A stretch of 64,000 bases of DNA from Lumbricus terrestris. Taxonomy: Eukaryota; Annelida; Clitellata; Crassiclitellata; Lumbricidae. Below the pieces are notes generated by a model. That model saw nothing but the letters and a program-made list of their open reading frames with translations. It was not told the origin of the DNA and did no database searches. Location of the stretch: positions 12,883,294 through 12,947,293 of the forward strand of contig OX457044.1 in the NCBI GenBank assembly GCA_949752735.1, read 5' to 3'. Of this stretch, positions 39,919-60,241 are shown in pieces. The number at the start of each line of letters is the position of its first letter. The first letter of the stretch is position 1. Made by a program: the position numbers and the translations under genes.

Positions 39919-41410
39919 TCTATATAAATAAAGAGAAGATTCTGTGTCTGTTTGACCGGGATGCATTCCACAGTTTTTGAGCTTTTCACTCCAAACCTTC
40001 ACTACTGTGTAGGCCTCGGTATGAGACACCCCAACGAGAGATTGGCGATTCTTTACCACCATGGGGGCCAGGGTGGGGTAAACCCCAATTTTGTTCATTT
40101 TTTTTAGCAATTACTCTGAAACTTTGTACCTAGACAGAGGGCCATCAGAGCCACCCGGTGGAGTGGCTGGCGAATCTCCAACACCATGGGGTGTTAGAGA
40201 TTATGGTTTTCGCAATCCCCACCTTGGCGGTGGGGATTGCGAAAATCATAATTTTCACCATAAATTTCCATTTCCTTGCCATAGTTTCACAGTTAGACAG
40301 ATTTTTACGCGGACCACCTCGCCTCTACTCAGCCCACACCTCGGCCCGCAGAGGCCGGGTGGGGCATGGCTGGGGTTGGAGTGGCGTGGGGGCGGTGGGG
40401 GAGAAAATTTTCCCATAAGCCGAAATTTTGCGGGTGGCGTACCGGTCGAGGTTGGAGTGTGGTGTGGTGGGTAGGGTGAGATGGGTGGGGTGGGGGTGGG
40501 GGATGGTGGTGGGGGAAATTTTCCGAATACACAAATTTCACGGGTGGCGTACCTGTGGAGGTCGGAGTGTAGTGTGGTGTGGTGGGGTCGGGGGTGGCGG
40601 GTGGGGGTGGGTGGGGGTTGGGTGGGGGTGGGGGTAGGTGGGGAGTGGGGTGGGGTGATGTGGTGGGGTGGGGGGATGAGGTGAGGGTGTGTGGAAGTGT
40701 GGTGGGAAGGGGTGGGGTGATGGGCGTGGTGGGTGGAAATGGAGTGGGCGTGTGAGGGTGGAATGGGGTGGGGAGGGAGAGCGGTTGGGTGGGTGGGGAG
40801 TGGAAGTGAGTGGGGTTGGGGTTGGGAGAGAAGGTTGGGAGGGATGTGAGCATGGGAGATTGAGGTGGGGGGAATTTTTCCGAAAACCCAAATTTCACGG
40901 GTGGCGTACCGGTGGAGGTCGGAGTGTGTTGTGGGGTGGGGGTTGCGGGTGGGTTGGGGGTGGGTGGAGTGGGGTTAGGTGGGATGAGGAGGTTGGGGAG
41001 TGGAGGTGGGGGGAAGGGGTGGGGTGAGAGATGGAGTGAGGGTGTGGGGGAGTGAGGTGGAAAAGGGTGGGGTGGTGGATGGGGTGGGAACGGGAGGTTG
41101 GTAATAAGAGTGTGGAGGAGTGGGGGTGAGGTGAGGAGGGAGAGGGGTTGGGTGGATGAGGAGTGGGGGTGAGTGGGGTGGGGTTGGGATCGGGGAAGAA
41201 GGTGGGGAGGGGTGTGGGGTATGGATGATTAGGGTGGGGGTGGAGGTAATTTTTCAGAAATCCCAAATTTCACAGGTGGCGCACCGGTGGTGGTCGGAGT
41301 GTGGTGGGATGTTGTGGGGTGGGGGTGTGATGCGGTGGAGTGTGGTGTGGTTGTGGCCGGGAGCGGGTCGTATCCTAAATTTCCCGGGCCACGCCGGGTA
41401 CCCCAGCTAG
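39919..41410 (+). mobile_element. Helitron, non-autonomous, 1.5 kb
   Basis: The 5' end is TCTATATAAATAAAGAGAA and the 3' end is CCCAGCTAG. A CCCGG/CCGGG hairpin (41383-41398) lies 12 nt before the terminus. It is inserted between A (39918) and T (41411) with no target duplication. All of these are Helitron hallmarks. No Rep/helicase frame is present. The interior is strongly G-rich on the plus strand with four copies of an about 60-bp module (near 40405, 40515, 40870 and 41250). Proline-rich open frames on the minus strand are composition artefacts. Confidence 0.85.
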
Positions 41411-41465
41411 TACTAAAATATAAGACGAATTTACAAGTATGTAAGTATATGAAATAAACATGTTC

Positions 41466-41572
41466 TATCCATTCGCAAGGGTATTCCAAAAAGGTCCAAG
41501 TCCGGTTGCGCTAAGGCCGGTGTCGTCTGAGTCGAGAATTGGAAGGTGGGTGATCATCGCCACAGATAATCC
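41466..41572 (+). repeat. Dispersed repeat, copy 2
   Basis: Matches 22854-22990 over GCAAGGGTATTCCAAAAAGG, AAGGCCGGTGTCGTC and GAGAATTGGAAGG. Confidence 0.55.
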
Positions 41573-41756
41573 CTATACTAACTAACTAAATGATTAACTA
41601 CGATTAAAGCAAAGCAATTTGACTGCAAGTAATTGAATCGAGGTAGCAAAAATGCAACTCAATACAGAGAAAGAAAGAAAAACCGAATAGTTTGGATTAC
41701 AGTTGAGAACGAAATCAAGTTGATTACTGCCCTGCTTGAACAATGGTATGTTTTAG

Positions 41757-41878
41757 GTACAAGAATCACACAAGCATCCGAATGCTTTGCACACTGGAAA
41801 GATTCGAAATGTGATCATGAATGGGGATTAAATTTTACTACTCCTCTAGACGCCAGACGATTTCACGACTGCTGCATG
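41757..41878 (+). CDS. Host gene exon: EVH1/WH1-like domain, second half
   Basis: Acceptor TATGTTTTAG and donor CATG|GTGCGC bound a 122-nt exon whose first two bases complete the split glycine codon from 39907. It encodes TRITQASECFAHWKDSK, then HEWGLNFTTPLDARRFHDCC. W-G-L-N-F followed by an alpha-helical start (DARRF) is the classic C-terminal strand and helix of EVH1 domains. The join to the 39726-39907 exon keeps the frame across the Helitron-bearing intron, which supports both exons. Confidence 0.75.
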
Positions 41879-42412
41879 GTGCGCAGCTTCTTTATTTTTC
41901 CCAAACCTAACATGCTATAAAATTCTCTGCATGTTTTAGCAATATCTGTTTAACCCATGTGATGATTGAACTTGCAATGATATTGTTTTAAGCACAAAAA
42001 ATAGCACCTAATTGAATATTCGAACTATCGCCAATAACCTTTCCTTGATATGTTCTATTGACGCGCGCTTCACCAACTATATATTTACGCATACAATGAC
42101 TGTCAAGCGGAGGTGTGCAGTAATCATGATTAGAGAGTATTTCAGATATGATGTGAATATAACTAAGTTTTTGGCAACCATCGAAAACCCTGATTTTGTG
42201 TTGACGAAGTTGTGTTGACTGGAGCAAAACAGGACACACTCAAGACAAACAACCGGTATTAAATGCTCCCACATCACGATTTTGACTAATTTTACCTAAT
42301 TATTAAGACAACCAGATTTTTATTGCAAAATATCGGTTAATTTGCTGCAATAATTCAGAGTATTTGCAGAAATATTAACATTTTTCATTTTTTTTATTTT
42401 TAATATATCCAG

Positions 42413-49536: not shown

Positions 49537-49938
49537 ATAAGGCCGGACGGTGTGACGCTTATTCCCTGGTCATGTGGGAGTTGTCTCACTTGGGATGTGA
49601 CAGTGTCAGACATTTTTGCGGCATCGCATCTGGCAGCAACATCAGCAGGAGCGGGCGAGGCCGCAAACCAGGCAGCCGTCGCCAAAAGAACAAAGTACGC
49701 CGCAGTCACTCGGACACATGCCTTCGTGGCGGTGGCATTAGAGTCCGGTGGTTCTTGGAGCTCGGAGGGACTGGACTTTGTTTTAGACCTGGGACGAAGG
49801 TTGACCGAGGCGACTCAGGACAGACTCGAGACGAGTTACCTTCTTCAAAGAATCTCGGTGGCAGTCCAGCGGGGGAACGCTATCTGTTTCTCATCCACAT
49901 TGCATTTGTAACAGTGATATAAGCTAGATAACTGTGAG

Positions 49939-49945
<7 letters not shown>
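49537..49945 (+). pseudogene. RLE-type retrotransposon copy C, 3' end only
   Basis: The copy begins inside the endonuclease motif (RPDGVTLIPWSCGSCLTWD) and runs 124 codons to a stop near 49911, including LDFVLDLGRRLTEATQDR and SVAVQRGNAICFSSTLHL. The sequence differs clearly from copies A, B, D and F, so it is a separate subfamily. The frame is intact, but only the last tenth of the element is present. It ends in an (AAT)n tail. Confidence 0.75.
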
Positions 49946-49975
<30 letters not shown>

Positions 49976-49983
49976 TATTATTA

Positions 49984-50064
<81 letters not shown>

Positions 50065-50071
50065 TTTCAAC
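49942..50071. repeat. Convergent (AAT)n-(ATT)n junction
   Basis: AAT repeats switch to ATT repeats near 49975. It is the tail of copy C meeting the tail of antisense copy D. Confidence 0.9.
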
Positions 50072-50444
50072 CTTTATTGAAACATCACTCAAGCTTAAAA
50101 CAAAAATCAAAAAACAGAAATGTGTTCAAGCGTAGAGTGCATTGTTCTCGTCTCCGGGGTGTGGTGCAAATGTACCTCTAAAGGCAACGCCGTCGAATCG
50201 CTGTGTGCAAATTGATATCCTCTGGAAGAGGTAGACAATCTCCCTTGGATCGCCGGAAACAGTGGCACAACGGCGGCCTAACTCAAGCAAAAACTCTCGA
50301 CCAGCGCGATTGATGGGGCCCAACGATTCAACAGCAATGGGCACAAACTCATGGAAGACAGGAAGAGTGGAATATTTTTTGCATTTCCGGTCCGCCGCAT
50401 GTTCCGCAGCTCCTCCAGTTGATGAAAGATGTATGTAGGACACT
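50072..50444 (-). pseudogene. RLE-type retrotransposon copy D, 3' part
   Basis: The minus-strand frame (50126-50443) starts SYIHLSSTGGAAEHAAD, includes ESLGPINRAGREFLLELGRR and ends at a normal stop, then a 3' UTR. It is the C-terminal end of the copy whose 5' part is at 58732-60241. The reading frame joins exactly across the inserted Polinton-like element once one copy of GACACT is removed. Confidence 0.85.
50439..50444. repeat. Target site duplication, left (GACACT)
   Basis: Identical to 58732-58737. 6 bp is the Polinton/Maverick duplication length. Confidence 0.9.
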
Positions 50445-50950
50445 AGTAGAGGGGTACCAATCGTTTGACACCCAATTCTAGGAACGGCGACTTCTAGGAA
50501 AGGCGCTTCTAGGCTTCTAGGCCACGCCTACCTAGGCTATAGGCTTCTAGGCTTCTAGGCCACACCTACCTAGGCTTCTAGACTACCCATACCTAGGCTA
50601 ATAGTGCTTCTAGGCTACACCTAATTAGCATACAGGCTACCAGCGCACTTCCAGGAACGCCCTACCTAGGCTAATAGCGCTTCTAGGCTACACCTAATAA
50701 GCTTCCATGAATTCTAGGCTAGACCTAATTAGCATACGAGCGACCAGGGCTTCTAGGGAACTTCTAGCTAATAGCGCTTCTAGGGCTAATAGCTCGCTTA
50801 TACTAGGGCCTCCCTACTCGGCTTGCAGCGCTCCCAGGAACTCAATTCGCTAATTTATTATGATAATTATTATGTGCACGCGGATTTCCGGGACATACCG
50901 CGATTTTCGGCGCCATACCAGGAACCATTTCCCAAGCGGAGCGAGAATTC
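50445..50950 (+). repeat. Left terminal inverted repeat, about 506 bp
   Basis: It matches the reverse complement of 58214-58731 with about ten differences, including one missing TCTAGGCT unit near 50510 and a rearranged stretch near 50757-50790. Most of it is reiterated TTCTAGGC / CCTAGGCTAATAG words. Confidence 0.9.
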
Positions 50951-51225
50951 CTAAGAGAACCCAATCAGCGTGCGAGAATTCCTAAGAGAGCCCAAACAGG
51001 AAGCGAAACCCACAACAGCCCAGGAAGCGGCAGCCATTCAGGAAGCGAGAATTCTATAGAGTGCCCAATCAGAATGCGAGATTCACAATAGCCCAGGAAG
51101 CTTCGCCCAAGCAGCATGCGAATTCCATTCTAGCCCAAACCCCATGCGCAATTAGAAGGTGAGAATCTTGCTAGTAGGAAATTTCTAAGTATGAATGAAC
51201 AAACACGATATTTTTCATAGCAATT
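50951..51225. repeat. Subterminal GAATTCCTAAGAGA repeats
   Basis: Imperfect units containing GCGAGAATTCCTAAGAGA and CCCAGGAAGCG recur every 30-60 bp between the left repeat and the polymerase 3' end. Confidence 0.6.
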
Positions 51226-51229
51226 CTTT

Positions 51230-51600
51230 ATTATACAGGCATTAAACAATCTTTATGTTAATATGGTTGTGCAATACCTTGCGCGATGGTGCAATATCTT
51301 CATTTATTTACAATGTTCGCCGCATAGTTCAAATATCTACAGAGTTCATCAATTTTTTCGCACAGTCTTCATTTCTTTACAATGTTCGTATACTGCGATT
51401 GCGCAATACCTTGCGCGATGGTGCAATGGCATCATTTATTTACAACGTTCGTCACATAGTTCAAATATCTATAGAGTTCGACGAGCATACGAGGTTTATC
51501 TACAATCTTCGCCACATAGTTAAATTCCACTATCTACAGAGGTCTTGATTTTCGCAGAGTCCATTATTTACAACGTTCGAAGACTTTTTCACATTTCAAC
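51230..51600. repeat. Tandem repeat downstream of PolB
   Basis: About four imperfect units of about 60-75 bp containing TTTATTTACAATGTTCG, CATAGTTCAAATATCTA and CAGAGTTC. They would lie in the 3' UTR of the polymerase transcript. Confidence 0.6.
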
Positions 51601-51603
51601 TAA

Positions 51604-54600
51604 CTACAAAGTATGTACAATATTTACATTTGGAATATTCACATGGCCGTAAGCTAAGGATTCTGACGAATTTAAAAGATATCGTTTGTCGTCGTACGGG
51701 GAGAGAGCCGCCTTTCGCACTTCTACCGTATGCAGCTCATGCTTCTTACTTTGGATAACGCAGAATTTGGAGCTAGTGGGCTTCTCTTCCAGGATACATG
51801 CTCGATATTCCGAATGTCTAATACATTTCTTTACAAATCCCCGTTTTATCCCCTTGGCGGTCTTCTTTTCCTTCTCCCCGGCCAACAACAAACTATACAT
51901 TTTTGAGCGAAGCCCACAAAATTCAACTACGGCATCACCATTGCATTCGTCCTTGAACTTCCCAATTACTTTTGCATTGGAGCGGCTGTGTAAAAAGTGC
52001 TCACAGGGATAATCGGAAGTGTCGTACTCGTCTAAGTTGTGCTGCATGTCAAGATAGACGTCTTTTGTAAAGATATGGTAACACAGACTGTCAGTGTCTG
52101 TGAAAAGGAGTTTGCAGGCAGATCCATAAATGGGGATTATATGCTGGTAATGAAATTCGTACATTTTCAATTTTGAAATATCCAAAATGCACATGCCGGC
52201 GTAAAGGGGTTTGTTGAGGAAAACGTTGGAATTTGTTAATTTTATCACAGTCAAATCGTCATTTATTATATTGTAGGATTCAAAATTGGGTCGGGCCACG
52301 AAACGTTTGGCTCGTTTCGCGTTGGTGACAAGCTTCACGGCAAGGTGCTACCTATTATTTTGCATTGTTTTTCCATAAATTGAGTTGCTCATTAATTTAA
52401 AGAGGTCTTTTTCAAAGGAAGATTTTGCAACCTGCCGTTTGGAAGTGTTAAAGTCGATATATGGCTTCAGCCATCGACTTTGGCGAAACTCGAGGATGTT
52501 ATGAATTTTGGTCAAACGCATGCCCATTTTCAGATAGAATTGTAAATTTCTGTAATGAACAACGTACCGGGTCTTTGCCATGAGATTGGGCACCAATTTT
52601 GTGACCCCGGTACCGATTTTAGCCGAAATTTTCTGCTAAACGGACTTTGCGTATGGGGATATCATGTCCGGTCGTATGTGAAGCGTCTCTGGAGCAAGGG
52701 GATAGTCATTATGATCGTCGTGAAGATGAGAAGGATAGTCCAAGTCAACGTCCAAAATATAACCCAAATCGTCGTCTGTCGATTTAGTGTTCAAGTCAAA
52801 GTCTGAAATCTCGTCGTCGTCCAAAAATCGGAATTTACCCGTCGGGAGCGGTTCGGACATGGCGTAGCCGTAGAGGTTGTTACAATCCAAATACATGATG
52901 TAACTGTTTGGACTGTTCGGGTCGTATCCTTGGGCGAGATACGGATTGTTGGCCTTTGCGTACCGATTAGAAATCATGGATACGCCGCCTCTCATGCCCC
53001 GCTCCACAAACAGGTAAATGTCCGGGTCGGTAATCAAGTCCAAATTTACGTTCGTCATGCGCAAGCACGCGTCAAAGCTAAGTCCGGGGCTGCTGTAATA
53101 GTGAAGCGGGTCCAATTTATAAAAGTCCAAGGACATGGCACGAAAAGATTCGAAAACATCAGCCAGTAAAATGACGTCTGTCTGCAAATACAGATTGTGA
53201 TAGTCCTGCATTGTTGTCATATTAAAAGTCTGCCAAATTTTCTGGGCATAGTCGTAGTCGTCCTGCGAAATGTCCTCGTCGGTCAATTTGCAGAAGAAAC
53301 AGCCTTTGAGAGGCAGAGTCCTTTCGGTCATTCTGCAGGCCGAAGTCATGTATTCGTAGGGAAATACTCCCTTACGCAAAAGCAATTTGTACTCGGCCGG
53401 AAAAATTCGCCGCAAATGTTTGAATTTCGAATCATCCTCTTTCGATAAATTTTTGACCAACACGTCCAAACCGCAGTTTAGAAATTGGAGGGAATCCAAA
53501 AATCGAATATTATTCACTTCGAACGAAAGATATTTTCCCATGTTGGTTGCAATGACATTTATTTCTTGCTCTGCAAACTCCCTTGTCATGTTTTTAAGAA
53601 TAAGATGAGAATCGTACCCTTTAAGGTTATGAAAGATGACGGGAAGAAGATAGTTTGCAGATTTGCCTTTCTTAGATTTGGTGGGTTTGCGAAACTTGAG
53701 TTTTAGATTGCAAGGAGAGCAAAGAGCAGAAACAAAGTTACCAGTCATGTGACAGTGGTGTCGAACTTTGTTGGAGCCAGAAAAAGCGATAGAGCAAGAA
53801 GGACATGCAACACAACTTTCAAATTCTATCCGCTGCGCTGGGTCATTGGAATCATTGGCTTGTTAGTGGCCAAAATTTTGTTAATGCGCGTTTGTTCGGA
53901 CTTTACATGCGAAAAGAAATGGGACATTACGTCAGGTCCCGAGTACGTATATGGCTTGTTGTCATTCAAGTGTGGAAAAGACGACACCGTCAAGCAGCAG
54001 AAGCCGCTGGGCGTATGAGTATCGAGAATTTTTGTTGCGGCGCCGCCGGCAGCCGCAGTGTCGTTTGGCGAGAGATAGCTCTCGAAATCCGAATATATTA
54101 CATAAGGCACAGGCATCTCATGCTGTGTGTTTGTAAATGCCAGATTTGAATTTTCAGGGGTCGGATATCGCACGGACTGCAAGCCGTGCTTGCCGCAGTC
54201 ATTCATATGCGCATGCTTCCCAGCAGCAGCGGCGAAACAGTGTAGACAGTAAGGGCAAGGGAAAATTCTGTTAGTACCAGAATTTCTTCTCCTTAGAAGA
54301 GCAGCAAGATTGCGAATGGTAATATAGTGACGTTTCTCCCCATCATCAAGAAGCAAAAGATTTACAATATGTTTCCTCCCCTGTGAGCACTTGCGTATAG
54401 GGGCGTAAAGGTTTTGTCGTCGGGGTTTGAGTATATGACATTGATTGAATACTCAGGGTTGAGAGATTCAAAGAGAGGAATTTGGTCGATGATCATTGGA
54501 AACTTTAAGTCGTCGGTATGAAGCTCTTTCAGATATCGCCTGTAGATGCTTATTCGCTCTGCATGTTTAGCTTGATAATGACTGACAGCCAGCGTTGCAT

Positions 54601-54930
54601 AGAGAAAGCAGAATTCGTCATCGTTGTGAAGGTTCAGAGTTGCATGCTTATTTGCAATATATTGCGGGGTGGGAATGTATGTGGACGCACCTATTGGCAT
54701 TACAAAGTTTGAAATCAGCCACGCCATTTACCAACCATCCAGAACTCTGGCTCGTGAAGACGTCTACCAATTCGTCTATGCGATGTACGGCGTCTTGCAG
54801 CTGGTCGGCGATCTGCGACGGATGCAGCAGTGTTGCCGGCACGGACTTGAAATATCCGACCGTCTGTGCATCTCCGTCTGGCGTGGATCGTTTGAAGTCC
54901 ACGTCGACCGCCACGTACCATTTCACCGGC
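51604..54930 (-). pseudogene. Protein-primed family B DNA polymerase, main exon, broken
   Basis: Acceptor TTTCTATAG at 54931 opens the exon in phase with the upstream exons. In order: N-terminal domain with an SSGW motif (about 54730) and NDDEFCFLYATLAVSHY (about 54600); a C-C-H-C finger (54257-54195); Exo I YSDFESYL (Asp at 54089); a C-x2-C...HCH zinc site near 53800; Exo II FHNLKGYDSHL (53613); Exo III YLQTD (53178); motif A YLDCNNLYG (Asp 52887); motif B NSIYGK (about 52365); motif C DTDS (52098); thumb KKTAKG. All catalytic residues remain. Lesions: frameshifts near 54695, 54358 and 53835, and in-frame TAG at 52636-52638 and 52348-52350. DNA_pol_B_2 type, as in Polintons, adintoviruses and linear plasmids. 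Confidence 0.9.
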
Positions 54931-55261
54931 CTATAGAAATATTGATATTTTTCTAAATACGAATCGACTAAGTCCTACTATTGCATTGAATAATTTCTAA
55001 GTTCAATAACTTGAGAACTTGGGCTGCTCTAACAGAAAAGTTCTAAGTCCAAACGATAGAGAATTGTAATTGCAAACAATCTTGTAGAGTAAAATTTTTC
55101 TAAGTCCAAGAAATAAAGACACAAAAATTGTCTAAGTCCAGCATTTTAGAGCGAAAATTTTTCTAAGTTGCATGCTTTAGAGCAAAATTTTTTTTTTCTA
55201 AGTATAAGAAATAGAGAGACAAATTTTCTAAGTCCAAATTGTCTGTGTAAGACAAACTCAC

Positions 55262-55568
55262 CCTTCGTCGCTGAATGTGGCTTCCAGAGCGTCCGTCATG
55301 CGCGCCGCTTCTCCCAGCAGCATCCCGTGAACATCTGTTGTTTGCGGAATGGGAAACGCCACATCCATAAAGGCATTCTGAGTCGATGTGCGAAGCCCTG
55401 GAGTGCGGGCTTTCTTCTGGCAGGTGACACACACATCTTGACCGGCTCGGAAGAAGCGAGGCGGTCTTCGGCACTTGCACTGCGAGCACTCTTTCCGCTG
55501 CAGATACGTTTCACAAAGCCCGTTCACCAAGTTGGTCACCTTGTAGCTTCGACAAGATGCGCACCAAC
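55262..55568 (-). CDS. PolB gene exon 6: cysteine-rich (zinc-binding) segment
   Basis: Acceptor ATATCTTTAG and donor GAAGG|GTGAGT bound 307 nt. The product has WCASCRSY, then ECSQCKCRRPPRFF and DVCVTCQKK: CxxC-type pairs consistent with one or two zinc ribbons. A Met/Ala-rich region follows. It ends in phase 2, and the next exon (54930 downwards) starts with the one base needed to complete a glycine codon and enter the polymerase frame. The cluster resembles none I can name. It may bind DNA or a partner protein. Confidence 0.7.
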
Positions 55569-55689
55569 CTAAAGATATATCACAAATTGTAAGAATATAA
55601 CATTCTAAAGAGTGAAATGTATGAAGAGTTTGATTGATGATAATGCGACAGATCTACATGTAAAAAGAGAAGTGTGGGCGTGTGCGTGT

Positions 55690-55703
55690 GTGTGTGTGTG
55701 TGT
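55690..55703. repeat. (GT)n tracts in intron 5
   Basis: Two short GT runs, 55686-55703 and 55771-55792, each followed by a ...CACACAGGAAGA(G/A)TGTAAAAGATA copy: an intronic direct duplication. Confidence 0.6.
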
Positions 55704-55847
55704 GTAACACACACAGGAAGAGTGTAAAAGATAGGCTATTCAAAGCGAAATATCTACAAACAAAGAATTCAATGTGTGTGTGTGTGTGTGTGTTGCACAC
55801 AGGAAGAATGTAAAAGATATTCTGTTTAAAATGTTAAAGCTCCTTAC

Positions 55848-56081
55848 TTGATGTGTTGGGCTCTGCTGGAGATGCCGACCTCGCATCCCTGTCGCTGGAG
55901 TTGGCCGCCGCAGCCGCTGCCGGGGTCGCACCCGCCACCGAGCCGCCGGATCCGAAGCTGGTCGCCGCTCTCCTCATGCTCAAGTCCAAGGCTGTCGAGT
56001 TGACGTTTTCGGTGTCTGGCGCCGGCGTCGATCTCCTCATGCTCAAATCCAATGCCACTAGGCCGTCGTTTCCCGGCAGAT
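55848..56081 (-). CDS. PolB gene exon 5: two ALDLSMRR motifs
   Basis: Acceptor CTATATGATGCAG and donor ACATCAA|GTAAGG bound 234 nt (phase 1 in, phase 1 out). The product contains ALDLSMRR twice, 20 residues apart, in a low-complexity Ala/Ser/Gly-rich context. P/A-x-D-L-S-x-R/K is the docking motif for the CtBP corepressor, used by many transcriptional repressors and by some DNA-virus early proteins. Here the position that is usually Pro is Ala. Duplicated short linear motifs in a disordered region suggest a real interaction site, but this is inference. Confidence 0.7.
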
Positions 56082-56244
56082 CTGCATCATATAGAAATAT
56101 CAAATACAAATTTCTTTACAAACTGTCGTATTTGAAAGTATTGATTACAAAAATATAAAATTCTGTGTTCGTGATGTATAAGTCTGTTGAAATTGCTCAA
56201 TGTGTTGGATAAGTTTAAAACATTTTTCGAAAACATATACTTAC

Positions 56245-56292
56245 GGGTTCGCTTTGGTGCACGGCCAGTGTTCGAATCTGCCTTTCTTTTAG
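56245..56292 (-). CDS. PolB gene exon 4: basic, NLS-like
   Basis: 48 nt between TTTTGTATTGTAGAG and CCC|GTAAGT. In the phase set by exon 3 it encodes KRKADSNTGRAPKRT, which has the spacing of a bipartite nuclear localisation signal. The alternative upstream AG would put exon 5 out of frame with an immediate stop, so this acceptor is preferred. Confidence 0.65.
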
Positions 56293-56443
56293 CTCTACAA
56301 TACAAAATTATTCGCCATGTATAAAATCTTACAAAATATTTTAAATAACGCAAGTATTTCACTTTAAATACCAAATTTTTAAAATAATATATTTTGATCA
56401 ATATAATTTTTATCAGTTTACAAATGAAAGTATTAAAACTTAC

Positions 56444-56500
56444 CCATTTCTCGAATCCTCTCTTTCAGTTGAGCTTCAATTTTCGCACGTATGCTGCTGG
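56444..56500 (-). CDS. PolB gene exon 3: short helical segment
   Basis: 57 nt between TTTTCTTTAG and ATGG|GTAAGT, phase 1 in and out. It encodes SSIRAKIEAQLKERIREM, a charged amphipathic helix candidate. Confidence 0.65.
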
Positions 56501-56931
56501 CTAAAGAAAAATAAATATTTGAGAATCTGTGTGTGAGTCCTAAGGCACATAAAGTTTAAGAATATATTCTACCAGATTCCTTGTGCGTCAAATACGCGTA
56601 ATTCGGAAAAAGTTTGCTATGCGCCAGAATATCCCAACTTCGGCTACTTAATTTTTCTCTCAGACCGGTACGAATCGCACTACTTTTACAAAAATGCTAA
56701 ATTTCAAAGCAAAAGATTTCAAGTCAAGATCTGCTGGATTCTGAAGCTGCTGTGTGACAGCAATCGTCTGGCGGCCAAATTTATATCGTCGGGACTACTT
56801 TCTTGATGTATTTCTACGCGAAATAGTTCCAAGCGCTCGGAAGGATATGCCGCGGTGGTGATGCGGTCGAGCGCATGTGTGTGTGTTGCACACACATAGG
56901 AAGATTGCAAAAGGCCGCAAAGACAACTTAC

Positions 56932-56985
56932 TTGGCTCTCCAGAGTCCGATGAGGGGCCTGCCTGCAATTCGCCGTTGCTGAGAT
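56932..56985 (-). CDS. PolB gene exon 2
   Basis: 54 nt between TATCTCTTACAG and CCAA|GTAAGT. It encodes LSNGELQAGPSSDSGEP, acidic and Ser-rich. The phase fits exons 1 and 3. Confidence 0.6.
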
Positions 56986-57079
56986 CTGTAAGAGATAATA
57001 GTATAGGGCATAAAGCGCGAAACTTTAAAGTGTGAGATTCTTATAAGTGTAATAATAATACTTATGAGCCGGCAATATC

Positions 57080-57320
57080 TGCCTAAGTTAGCGTGTTTCT
57101 GTTGGAATCTTTCGCTAATACATTGAAATATGTTTTACCATATGGTTTATCATATGGTAAAGAAATGCCCTATATGGCATGTTAATATGTGTAGTATGTA
57201 TAAAGCCTAACATATCACGCTGCTGTTGGCGTCTTTCGCTGATAGAATAAAGAGCATATTATCATTTGGTAAAGAAATGCACTATATGCTTTATCATATG
57301 GTAAAGAAATGCACTATATG
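57080..57320. repeat. Repeats in intron 1
   Basis: Three copies of TATCATATGGTAAAGAAATG followed by CNCTATATG at about 57149, 57260 and 57291, with CATATG palindromes. Possibly regulatory; no function is evident. Confidence 0.55.
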
Positions 57321-57726
57321 AGTCGATAATCTATGTGGAGCCCCTATCGTGTTCGCTTCACAGTGTGAGGCTGGTCTGTTTCATTATCACCACGCAGTCT
57401 TTCCGTAATATGCTTCTAAGAGCCGCTATAAAGATTTAAAATAAAATAAGAATTTAGTAGAGTCGTAATAATAATAATATTATTTTCTATTCATTTCAAA
57501 AATGCAAGGAATTTTCCTTTCATTCGTCATTTTGATCCCTGGAAAAACGCTCGGCAAAGGATTTCACTAGCACACTACCACCTTTCAGATCTATAGACCT
57601 ATTATACAGCAAGCGTCTGCAAAATATCAGCACAAAGAAAATATTTATTACGTTCTATTCGAATATCCAGCGAATTTACTGCAAAGCCTTAACTTAGAAA
57701 ATTTATTTTAAAATAATTATACTCAC

Positions 57727-57742
57727 GAGAATTTGAATCCAT
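57727..57742 (-). CDS. PolB gene exon 1: start codon and donor
   Basis: AGCAGCAATGG gives an ATG at 57742 with A at -3 (GCAATGG: G at +4). The coding part is 16 nt (MDSNS plus one base) and ends at a consensus donor TCTC|GTGAGT. The chosen start is the first ATG that opens the frame carried through all seven exons. Length and splice strength are right, but a 16-nt coding exon alone is weak evidence. Confidence 0.55.
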
Positions 57743-57904
57743 TGCTGCTGTAACGATTCGAGTCTGAAGGAGTCTGCCGTTCGTAGAAGCTATCTATAGA
57801 TCTGGAAATCGCCTCTTGTCAGCACCTCGCTGTGTTGAAGAATCGTCAGTTGTAGATCTTACGCGGCTGACCTTCTGAAAATCGTCTTGAGTAAAGGTCC
57901 CTCT

Positions 57905-58060
57905 GAATCATACAACCACGGTGTTTTACGCGTATAGTCATAATTCATAACCTCAGCAGTTGCAACCATCGGACTTTACGTCTATACCTATGAATCATAG
58001 CCGCTGCATCAGCAAGCGCGGGTTTTACGCGTATACCCATGATTCATACCCACCGCTTTT
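57905..58060. promoter_or_regulatory. Repeated motif upstream of the PolB gene
   Basis: Three copies spaced about 50 bp apart (57923, 57973 and 58022) of TTTTACGCGTATACCCATGATTCAT-like sequence, each with a TGATTCA/TGAATCA AP-1-like core. They lie 160-320 bp upstream of the start codon between it and the right terminal repeat, where a promoter or replication origin element would be expected. Confidence 0.5.
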
Positions 58061-58213
58061 ATGCCGGTTATACGATGAGTAACAGCTGATGAGATCAGCA
58101 AAGGGTTGGGCATTGTTGAATCATAGTGTGTTGAGTCAGCTTCAGCATGCATTAACAAGGGAGAAATGGAAAGAGATGGTTGTGAGTTCCTGGGATCGAA
58201 GAGTTGTTGGTTC

Positions 58214-58731
58214 GAATTCTCGCCCCGCTTGGGAAATGGTTCCTGGTATGGCGCCGAAAATCGCGGTATGTCCCGGAAAGCCTCATCCGCACAATAATTA
58301 TTATAATAAATTAGCGATTTGAGTTCCTGGGAGCGCTGCAAGCCGAGTAGGGAGACCCTAGTATAAGCGAGCTATTAGCCCTAGAAGCGCTAGTAGCCTA
58401 TAGCCCGGTCCCTAGAAGCCCTGGTCGCTCGTATGCTAATTAGGTCTAGCCTAGAATTCCTGGAAGCTTATTAGGTGTAGCCTAGAAGCGCTATTAGCCT
58501 AGTTAGGGCGTTCCTGGAAGTGCGCTGGTAGCCTGTATGCTAATTAGGTGTAGCCTAGAAGCACTATTAGCCTAGGTATGGGTAGCCTAGAAGCCTAGGT
58601 AGGTGTGGCCTAGAAGCCTAGAAGCCTATAGCCTAGGTAGGCGTGGCCTAGAAGCCTAGAAGCCTAGAAGCGCCTTTCCTAGAAGTCGCCGTTCCTAGAA
58701 TTGGGTGTCAAACGATTGGTACCCCTCTACT
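58214..58731 (-). repeat. Right terminal inverted repeat, about 518 bp
   Basis: Reverse complement of 50445-50950 with about 95% identity by eye. It ends GGTACCCCTCTACT. Confidence 0.9.
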
Positions 58732-58737
58732 GACACT
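58732..58737. repeat. Target site duplication, right (GACACT)
   Basis: Identical to 50439-50444. Confidence 0.9.
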
Positions 58738-60241
58738 GCACAAGTGTGGATGGCTGTAAAGTCCCAGGCGATATATTTTCCTCTGACCCATGGAACGAGG
58801 GTGGCCCCATCAGGTCTTTTGCCGTCAGTTCTGATCAGGCCTGGGGGCTCCTTCGAACTGGGTATATCCGCCTTCGCGAGCGCCCTCCACACCAGGTCGT
58901 TGATTGCGAAGTGCCGCGCTGTTCTTCCGGACCAACCCATGGTGTCCTCTTAAGTCGGCGGTATCTCCGCACTGACACTGGTGAGGTGTACATAAATCCA
59001 AGCCCAGACGCAGTCCAACGGCCACCCGGATTGCCTCATTGCTTAGGTCCAAGCCACAGGCGGTCACAGGAATAGTTGATAGCTAGTCCCCCGCATGAGG
59101 GGAGGTCACCGCAAATAGCCTGGCCATGTTGACCGGATCGCTGTAGGCGGCCCATACCGCTGTCCTGTCTACCTCAATCAGAGATCTATCCCACACGCTC
59201 TGTCTGCTCCAAAGGGGCTCTGCACTGCTAGGCTGGGTGTTCTTGCGGACCTCGAGCAGATCGTCGATGTGGACATCATCCCACTCCTCCTTGCAGAGAA
59301 TCATACTCACGAGTGATTTTGTCGATGCGGCTGATGCCAAGTAAGCTGAAGATGCCAGCATCGAGACACGTCTAACTCCGAGTCCTCCATCTCTAATTGG
59401 GAGTGTGGCTTGTAGCCATTGGATGTTGTTGAGGCTGATGTTGATGATGTTCTCTAGCCCTATTTACGCATTTGATCATCCATTTTCTCGAGCAGTGGAT
59501 GACCATGGCATGGGGCAGTTCTCAGCAAATAGGTAAGTTTTGCTGCCCCAAAACTTGCCCGCAGCAGGATCAACGCTGCCTGGGCTCGAAGGCAGGCCAG
59601 GTCTGTCACTGCCCGTTCCAATAACTCGCTGTGCCTCAGCAGCGTCCCGTCCAAAGCCCCACTTCGGAACAATGGGGCCCCCAGTAGGAGGAGCGACCCC
59701 ATGTCCATCCGTTCGAATCCTTCGAAATCTGGCTCCGTGTGTTCCGTCTTTGAATAGAGTTCACAGTTCTTACTATTCAAGCAGATACCAAGCGATATCT
59801 CCAAGTCCTTAATCGATGCCACATCCTGTCGTACGTCCTCCTTCTTTCCTCCCAGAGAGATGTCGTCCAGATAGCCAAGCCTGAAACTTGAGCGCATTGC
59901 ACGCAAGACTGGCTGCAGAGGCAGGCAGAACAGTAGAGGCCCCAAGGGATCTCCCTGCTGCGGTCCCATCTTAGAACGAACCACGAAGGAGCCAAACTGC
60001 AGCTGAGAATCTGCTGAGTACGACTGATGTGTGAAGGCGTAGATCTCCGGTATAATGTCGTAAACCGTCTGCAGCATGACGTCTCTTCGCAACGTGTTGA
60101 ATGCGTTTGTGAAGTCAAGTTTCACGAAGATCTCGTCCTCTGTCATGTTTGTGACGAAGCTCCTTGCCGCATGTACTGCCGCTTCACCGCCTCCTGGGAC
60201 CCCCACTCCAACTTGCAATGGGGCGAAGAAAGATTCTAGCC
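58732..60241 (-). pseudogene. RLE-type retrotransposon copy D, 5' part
   Basis: From 60241 downwards: RT with FVKLDFTNAFNTLRRDVML, MGPQQGDPLGPLLFCLPLQP and the catalytic LGYLDDISLGG, then thumb sequence to about 59460, RRVSMLASSAYLASAAS (59360), CCHC (CQCGDTADLRGHHGLV, final Cys replaced by Arg) near 58970, and the endonuclease KRPDGATLVPWVRGKYIAWD near 58790. Lesions: a frameshift at about 59460, a TAG near 59085 and a deletion near 58940. It continues at 50444 after the Polinton-like insertion. Its 5' end abuts (ATT)n. Confidence 0.85.

Follow-up and report, generated by a model that had tools for sequence, protein, structure and literature searches.

Polintons, as described in passages of PMC6431247, are typically 15-25 kb in length and encode a DNA polymerase (PolB) and an integrase, plus protease, ATPase and capsid genes. 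Passages of PMC8097293 give vertebrate Mavericks AGT/ACT tips, 6-bp target-site duplications (TSDs) and, when intact, intronless genes, and in the sections of PMC11071308 that deal with Polinton PolBs, a terminal-protein (TP) domain and an OTU-type protease precede the polymerase. We analysed a 64,000-nucleotide stretch of DNA from Lumbricus terrestris (GenBank assembly GCA_949752735.1, contig OX457044.1, positions 12,883,294 to 12,947,293; hereafter the window), which contains an 8-kb element with Polinton-like ends and PolB as its only recognised gene. This element is probably a degraded copy of a Polinton-derived, PolB-only lineage that is autonomous in its replication and dependent in its integration.

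The 8-kb element shares with Polintons and Mavericks, as the latter are portrayed in parts of PMC8097293, its terminal inverted repeats (TIRs), AGT...ACT tips, 6-bp TSD and protein-primed type of PolB, of which the priming part is putative. It differs in its length (8 kb as opposed to 15-25 kb) and in that no rve integrase, capsid or ATPase genes, such as those listed for Polintons in passages of PMC6431247, were found in it; its PolB contains introns, whereas the open reading frames (ORFs) of intact vertebrate Mavericks are given as intronless in passages of PMC8097293. Because the integrase, the capsid and the length are all wanting, we consider it a relative of Polintons and not a Polinton.

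Adintoviruses, in the relevant sections of PMC11071296, carry a chromodomain integrase and virion genes. A 17.45-kb element of adintovirus type, resident in the same genome, has a related PolB, the AGTAG/CTACT tip and the 6-bp TSD in common with the 8-kb element. We found no such integrase or virion genes in the latter, which therefore does not show the adintovirus combination of chromodomain integrase and hexon-type major capsid protein (MCP); the resident element has the integrase with its chromodomain, and its MCP is assigned solely by size and position.

Copies of the 8-kb element in the genome

We searched the genome (1.056 Gb in 331 contigs) with three types of TIR, those of the window element, of a second PolB copy (L035) and of the resident full-length element. 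Only the best candidates were scored in the searches with these TIRs and in those with pieces of PolB, integrase, capsid-position ORF and ATPase described below, and the counts of scored hits are therefore lower bounds. For the TIRs, the best 40 of 151 (window-type), 551 (L035-type) and 783 (full-length-type) candidates were scored, and the matching stretches (60, 67 and 55, respectively) were combined manually into 40 ends per query. Inverted pairs of these ends were compared with chosen subsets of the listed PolB, palindrome-centre, integrase and capsid markers, and zeros in this comparison do not count as negatives.

We identified 17 inverted pairs of the window-type TIR, 14 of which span 7.7-8.8 kb and the others 2.7, 10.4 and 13.9 kb; judged by the loci fetched, nine of the 14 contain PolB and five are palindromes, described below. 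A 30-base PolB signature, allowing up to 2 mismatches, gave 165 matches in the genome (reversed control, 0). On the basis of these pairs and matches, we rejected the explanation that the window element is a single isolated short copy. A query with a 370-amino-acid piece of PolB yielded 1223 candidates, the best 111 of which were scored; all 111 were 94-100% identical to the query, and in 82 the matched stretch is free of stops and lies in a frame open for 1,100 codons or more.

Fourteen PolB copies were read (the window, L011-L016, L018, L019, L009/L010, L025/L026, L027, L035 and L036). Both AGTAG/CTACT tips and a 6-bp TSD were present in 11 of them, every TSD being different, ten perfect and one matching at 5 of 6 positions. 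Ten of these two-ended copies are 8061-8642 bp long, and the eleventh, of 13,938 bp, has its PolB interrupted by inserted DNA. As for the remaining three, L009/L010 is without recognisable tips or TSD, L027 is missing one end, and L036 reaches the edge of the fetched stretch. We additionally identified a 2.7-kb deletion derivative of a PolB element (L017).

The two TIRs of a copy are between 94.4% (the window, over 518 alignment columns) and 99.8% identical, and in three of the copies read they are more than 99.5% alike, indicating recent activity. Copies separated by a synonymous divergence (dS) of about 1 keep the same gene-poor layout, with non-coding blocks 72-79% alike, indicating that the one-gene layout is older than this divergence. 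These elements are an old, recently active, PolB-only lineage.

An earlier note on this locus, made from the letters of the window, had named several 8-9-kb copies with the same gene set and distinct 6-bp duplications as what would establish a lineage, and such copies are now found in the ten of 8.06-8.64 kb; the contrary outcome that it envisaged, with the other copies at 15-20 kb and only the window copy short, did not come about, since 14 of the 17 pairs lie at 7.7-8.8 kb. Its account of TIRs of about 510 bp, AGT...ACT ends and a perfect GACACT duplication was borne out by alignment and direct reading, and every motif sought was present in the PolB that it had described as having all Exo and Pol motifs. 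We correct this description of PolB in two respects: in the window the gene is degraded to a pseudogene, and its coding sequence is split by introns.

The termini of the window element read AGTAGAGGGG...CCCCTCTACT, and GACACT adjoins both as a perfect 6-bp TSD (Table 1). The insertion splits an ORF of a long interspersed nuclear element (LINE). When the flanks are joined with a single GACACT, a 176-amino-acid open frame results, and a further two LINE copies of the window align through the rejoined junction at 75% amino acid identity, indicating that the insertion was precise. One LINE family is present in the window in several copies and in both orientations (46.9-50.4, 58.7-60.2 and 61.6-62.8 kb). 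Elsewhere in the window, positions 40001-42000 show a strong GC skew (0.479).

Outside the window, a candidate full Polinton starting at L028 was rejected, since its TIR is unpaired and the 28 kb that follow show no similarity to these elements. A scan of viral contigs with a single PolB found no relative, and a scan with a PolB alignment found two (L037 and L038).

Table 1. Coordinates of features in the window and of the resident full-length element (slashes mark splice junctions)
Feature	Position	Strand	Remarks
Left target-site duplication, GACACT	50439..50444	.	
Left terminal inverted repeat	50445..50950	+	Tip AGTAG; CTAG-rich subrepeats
Right terminal inverted repeat	58214..58731	-	Tip CTACT
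Right target-site duplication, GACACT	58732..58737	.	
Host LINE ORF split by the insertion (left flank)	49844..50444	-	Resumes 58738-59337
PolB exon 2, frame-broken here	51604..54930	-	Acceptor ..CTATAG/GCCGGTG at about 54930
PolB exon 1, CxxC-rich	55262..55568	-	Acceptor TTTAG/; donor GAAGG/GTGAGT or GTAAG
Probable upstream exon	55848..56081	-	ALDLSMRR motif present twice; Ala/Gly/Ser-rich tail; acceptor GCAG/ATCTG; donor A/GTAAG
Other half; no conserved frame found	56100..58213	.	
Resident full-length element, 17.45 kb	C7:53939297-53956748		L039 2798 to L042 1249

Structure and selection of the PolB gene

Exon 2 of PolB contains the end of the priming region, an OTU-like region, a zinc-binding stretch and the exonuclease and polymerase motifs. 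The first two of these were assigned from the literature, and the priming and OTU-like domains of the element PolB are putative, resting on regions that match in literature and sequence. The splice sites around exons 1 and 2 were seen in all 14 PolB copies compared, and the ALDLS motif of the probable upstream exon, with a conserved acceptor, in nine of the 14, eight of which have the A/GTAAG donor. The start codon must lie in yet another exon, farther upstream, which was looked for and not found. The ALDLSMRR sequence resembles the PxDLS motif of CtBP co-repressor-binding proteins, a resemblance that we treat as a lead only.

By eye, we recognised the Exo I-III and Pol A-C motifs in the window translations. 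Nine window ORFs were scanned against Pfam at E<0.001, of which two matched DNA_pol_B_2 (E of 3.5e-16 and 9.3e-6), and no other family was found in them. The window gene is broken, falling into four blocks against an intact relative, with five internal stops within three of these blocks. Full-length PolB proteins from four copies (L014, L018, L019 and L009) gave no DNA_pol_B_2 match at E up to 1, in contrast to the 370-amino-acid piece of the window PolB, which accounts for the match at 3.5e-16. We take the missing full-length match to be a quirk of the search, and base the probable identity of PolB instead on its homologues and on comparison with the PolB of the resident element. The structure model of a homologue 65% identical to it is confident (mean predicted local distance difference test, pLDDT, of 88.7), a PDB sequence search gave two weak ankyrin matches (best E 2.4e-4), and those homologues named to organism, among 120 listed, belong to four molluscs and a spider.

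Pairwise ratios of nonsynonymous to synonymous divergence (dN/dS) were 0.057-0.159, at dS of 0.145-1.056, for 55 pairs of 11 copies, calculated from in-frame tblastn blocks with stop codons omitted and broken copies included unmended. Judged from these ratios, PolB is under long purifying selection.

We compared one copy with the 13 others for the codon phasing of mismatches, using matches of at least 150 bases; part of the other half of the element aligned too poorly for this comparison. Phasing was strong only in exon 1 (0.31/0.17/0.10, in a block that includes some bases before the acceptor and has 35 gaps, 23% of them triplets) and in exon 2 (e.g. 0.40/0.10/0.06). The remaining tested blocks were flat or nearly so, the strongest phasing being 0.26/0.17/0.21, and their gaps were mostly non-triplet, except in one block with 4 gaps, half of them triplets, and in another with 81 gaps, 51% of them triplets, which overlaps the probable upstream exon. 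We therefore rejected the idea that the other half conceals another large gene; its blocks are about 72-79% alike between distant copies and show, where tested, no strong codon periodicity. Codon phase, Pfam and marker distances revealed no integrase, capsid or ATPase gene inside the 8-kb element; as to a protease, no further conserved reading frames were seen in the tested blocks, and no search aimed at a cysteine protease was made.

That no encoded integrase was found in an element with 165 signature matches would fit self-integration, in which cleavage and strand joining are carried out by PolB, by its Endonuclease VII-like zinc stretch or by an exon that escaped recognition, as would the weak, sub-cut-off Endonuclease_7 match seen in each of the four PolBs scanned (E of 5.5e-4 to 1.4e-3). 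However, the Cys and His residues of the zinc-binding stretch are invariant across 31 aligned PolB homologues, indicating that it is not peculiar to the 8-kb element, and the resident full-length element has its PolB alongside a dedicated rve integrase. Furthermore, the TSD length and the AGT/ACT ends are as in the Mavericks of PMC8097293, and passages of PMC6431247 ascribe integration there to the rve integrase. We thus consider self-integration improbable.

Gene-less palindromes with the same terminal repeats

At nine loci (L020-L024 and L031-L034), almost the entire element consists of a single palindrome. Eight of these have both tips and a perfect TSD, with lengths of 6.2-8.8 kb, and L034 has lost its left end. 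The two arms within a copy are 99.4-99.6% identical (five of the nine copies compared), the values for the others being 99.5% in L032, 98.7% in L033 and 95-96% in L031. Between copies, arms are 90.6-95.2% identical, except in the close pair L020 and L021 (99.2-99.8%), which occupy different sites with different TSDs. The 81-base centre of the palindrome, about 60 bases of which are poorly paired by reading, is 92.6-98.8% conserved in eight of the nine loci, and its signature has 177 matches genome-wide (control, 0). A 283-amino-acid ORF and similar frames in the palindromes were rejected as genes, with Pfam matches that are weak or of low complexity and an inconsistent codon phase; in a test of four arms, the phase bias was inconsistent and triplet gaps were few.

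We identified two TIR families common to PolB elements and palindromes. The window-type TIR is found on PolB elements and, via its outer 250 bases, on palindromes. L035-type pairs enclose PolB on C14, C6, C1 and others, and one such pair (C9:3286860-3294785) contains the palindrome-centre signature at C9:3290612, suggesting that a palindrome is present there. Because the TIR families are the same, the palindromes are most simply explained as satellites of the same polymerase. They might alternatively be an unrelated foldback transposon that acquired the same ends, and the PolB element L014 indeed shares no match of at least 150 nt with five palindromes besides the terminal repeat; we consider this unlikely, given that the two groups have two separate TIR families in common, along with the tip and the TSD length. 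Foldback and Galileo-type elements, in the parts of PMC3573991 and PMC4168063 that describe them, likewise have long inverted arms, but differ from these elements, in which a whole 6-9-kb palindrome surrounds a conserved centre and has Polinton-type ends.

We propose that the same PolB would copy the gene-less palindromes as satellites, and that displaced palindrome strands would fold back, one arm templating the other, leaving the arms homogenised. Arms that are mostly closer within than between copies are what would be expected if displaced strands snap back.

Hairpin and inverted-dimer forms occur in the protein-primed linear plasmids of yeasts and fungi, and a Neurospora hairpin plasmid is reportedly the subject of one published paper. 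The giant palindromes resemble such snap-back forms of protein-primed linear replicons, and palindromic or hairpin forms are one likeness to the cytoplasmic and mitochondrial linear plasmids with a protein-primed PolB. These plasmids, in the passages of PMC11071308 devoted to them, are capsidless replicons around a TP-bearing PolB. The 8-kb element might therefore be a nuclear linear plasmid, mostly extrachromosomal and occasionally captured by a Polinton integrase, with which its one-gene, TP-type polymerase and long TIRs would be consistent. However, it is chromosomal, and its introns, its 165 chromosomal signature matches and the TSDs of all 11 two-ended copies indicate that integration is its normal state, while its PolB is nearest to animal Polinton-type proteins. 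A plasmid nature of this kind is, accordingly, doubtful.

Resident integrase-bearing elements and integration in trans

In the resident full-length element, the TIRs measure about 383 bp and are 99.0% identical, the tips are AGTAG/CTACT, and TATATA adjoins each end. Its products are an rve integrase with a chromodomain, a phospholipase A2-like protein, an A32-type ATPase and PolB, together with a 437-amino-acid ORF in the MCP position, assigned by size, position and copy pattern and without a Pfam match. Queries with its proteins scored 133 of 4044 candidates for the integrase (3 with a stop), 97 of 908 for the capsid-position ORF (2 with a stop) and 146 of 878 for the ATPase (4 with a stop), all scored matches being at least 86% identical. 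A Pox_A32 Pfam search alone gave 4 matches, as against the 146 of the direct query, the model being insensitive here. Genome-wide, integrase-bearing Polinton/adintovirus-like elements form a large expansion that appears to be young, their genes being mostly open. Among the best 40 of 783 candidates for the full-length-type TIR, all 16 pairs span 15.3-19.2 kb, and of the chosen integrase and capsid-position markers they contain both kinds in eight cases, one kind in seven and neither in one. An integrase query from L037, a contig of IMG/VR, identified extra frames of 324-331 amino acids outside the list obtained with the integrase of L039 (for example at C18:3369987, C12:46081116 and C2:70617142), which may represent a second integrase family.

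A listed integrase lies within 12 kb of 1 of the 111 PolB matches and within 20 kb of 2, and none of the 111 has a listed capsid-position ORF at 20 kb or less, while 49 of the 97 capsid-position matches have a listed integrase within 12 kb. This count covered the 111 PolB and 97 capsid-position matches and 133 integrases plus 17 chosen from the matches of the L037 integrase query, one place being counted twice, and did not include ATPase positions. The PolB of the resident element is 46% identical to that of the 8-kb element over 692 aligned columns (666 amino acids fetched, from the C-terminal part). In a quick tree of 124 proteins, midpoint-rooted for drawing, the 8-kb PolBs form one clade beside the database proteins P0003-P0005, and the resident PolB falls elsewhere; the element PolB groups among animal-type PolBs in this tree, which is drawn without linear-plasmid polymerases.

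It is very unlikely that the 8-kb elements are recent internal-deletion derivatives of the resident full-length Polintons, mobilised wholly in trans. They share the terminal motif and TSD length with the full-length elements, and the 2.7-kb L017 shows that such deletions occur, but the low identity of the two PolBs and their separation in the tree, the lack of any TIR family seen in common among the candidates scored, and the purifying selection on PolB over a dS of about 1 while copies share a gene-poor architecture largely refute this origin for the full-length family read. The earlier note had offered a choice between a deletion derivative using an integrase in trans and a separate lineage. 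Many copies, one gene, distinct TSDs and purifying selection favour a separate minimal lineage, and they are compatible with an integrase in trans, integrase-bearing elements with the same tip being present in the same genome and the trans step itself being one that we infer. The place that the note suggested for such a lineage, intermediate between linear plasmids and Polintons, finds no support in the above tree of PolBs other than those of linear plasmids.

For a PolB-only lineage that depends on others for integration, the reading that we prefer, we propose that the host would transcribe and splice the PolB gene, and that the N-terminal part of PolB would serve as the protein primer, from which strand-displacement synthesis would begin at the tips of the TIRs. 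The resulting linear DNA would then be inserted in trans by the rve integrase of the resident Polinton/adintovirus-like elements, which would recognise the AGTAG/CTACT tip common to both kinds of element and cut with a 6-bp stagger.

Several points weigh against this proposal. That the resident integrase acts on the ends of the 8-kb elements is a matter of inference. The full-length TIR family was not seen on the 8-kb elements among the best 40 of 783 candidates, and thus, as scored, the likeness of the ends is limited to the AGTAG tip and the TSD length; the sole full-length TSD read, TATATA, lies in AT-rich sequence, and identity to the resident full-length PolB reaches just 46% in the aligned part. 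The true partner could instead be the putative second integrase family, with frames of 324-331 amino acids, and, only the best candidates having been scored, the lack of an integrase near PolB is incomplete proof. Finally, the homogenisation of palindrome arms is uneven, at 95-96% in L031 and 98.7% in L033, with 99.2-99.8% between L020 and L021.

More tentatively, and as something possible more than likely, there may be a three-tier chain, in which full-length elements give the integrase and perhaps capsids, the PolB-only element uses that integrase, and the palindrome uses both the integrase and the polymerase. If this is true, the homogenised arms of the palindromes would record, as fossils do, that protein-primed snap-back replication has taken place in animals. 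In the literature searched, we found neither a PolB-only Polinton lineage nor palindromes with Polinton ends described, and a precedent in subscription journals or Repbase is possible.

Polintons are usually pictured as carrying both integrase and capsid genes; the present elements indicate that a polymerase of Polinton type can keep a mobile lineage going when that lineage encodes neither. With likely integrase donors, polymerase-only elements and gene-less palindromes side by side in a single genome, it becomes directly testable which of the parts act in trans, and also whether animal Polintons replicate by protein-primed strand displacement.

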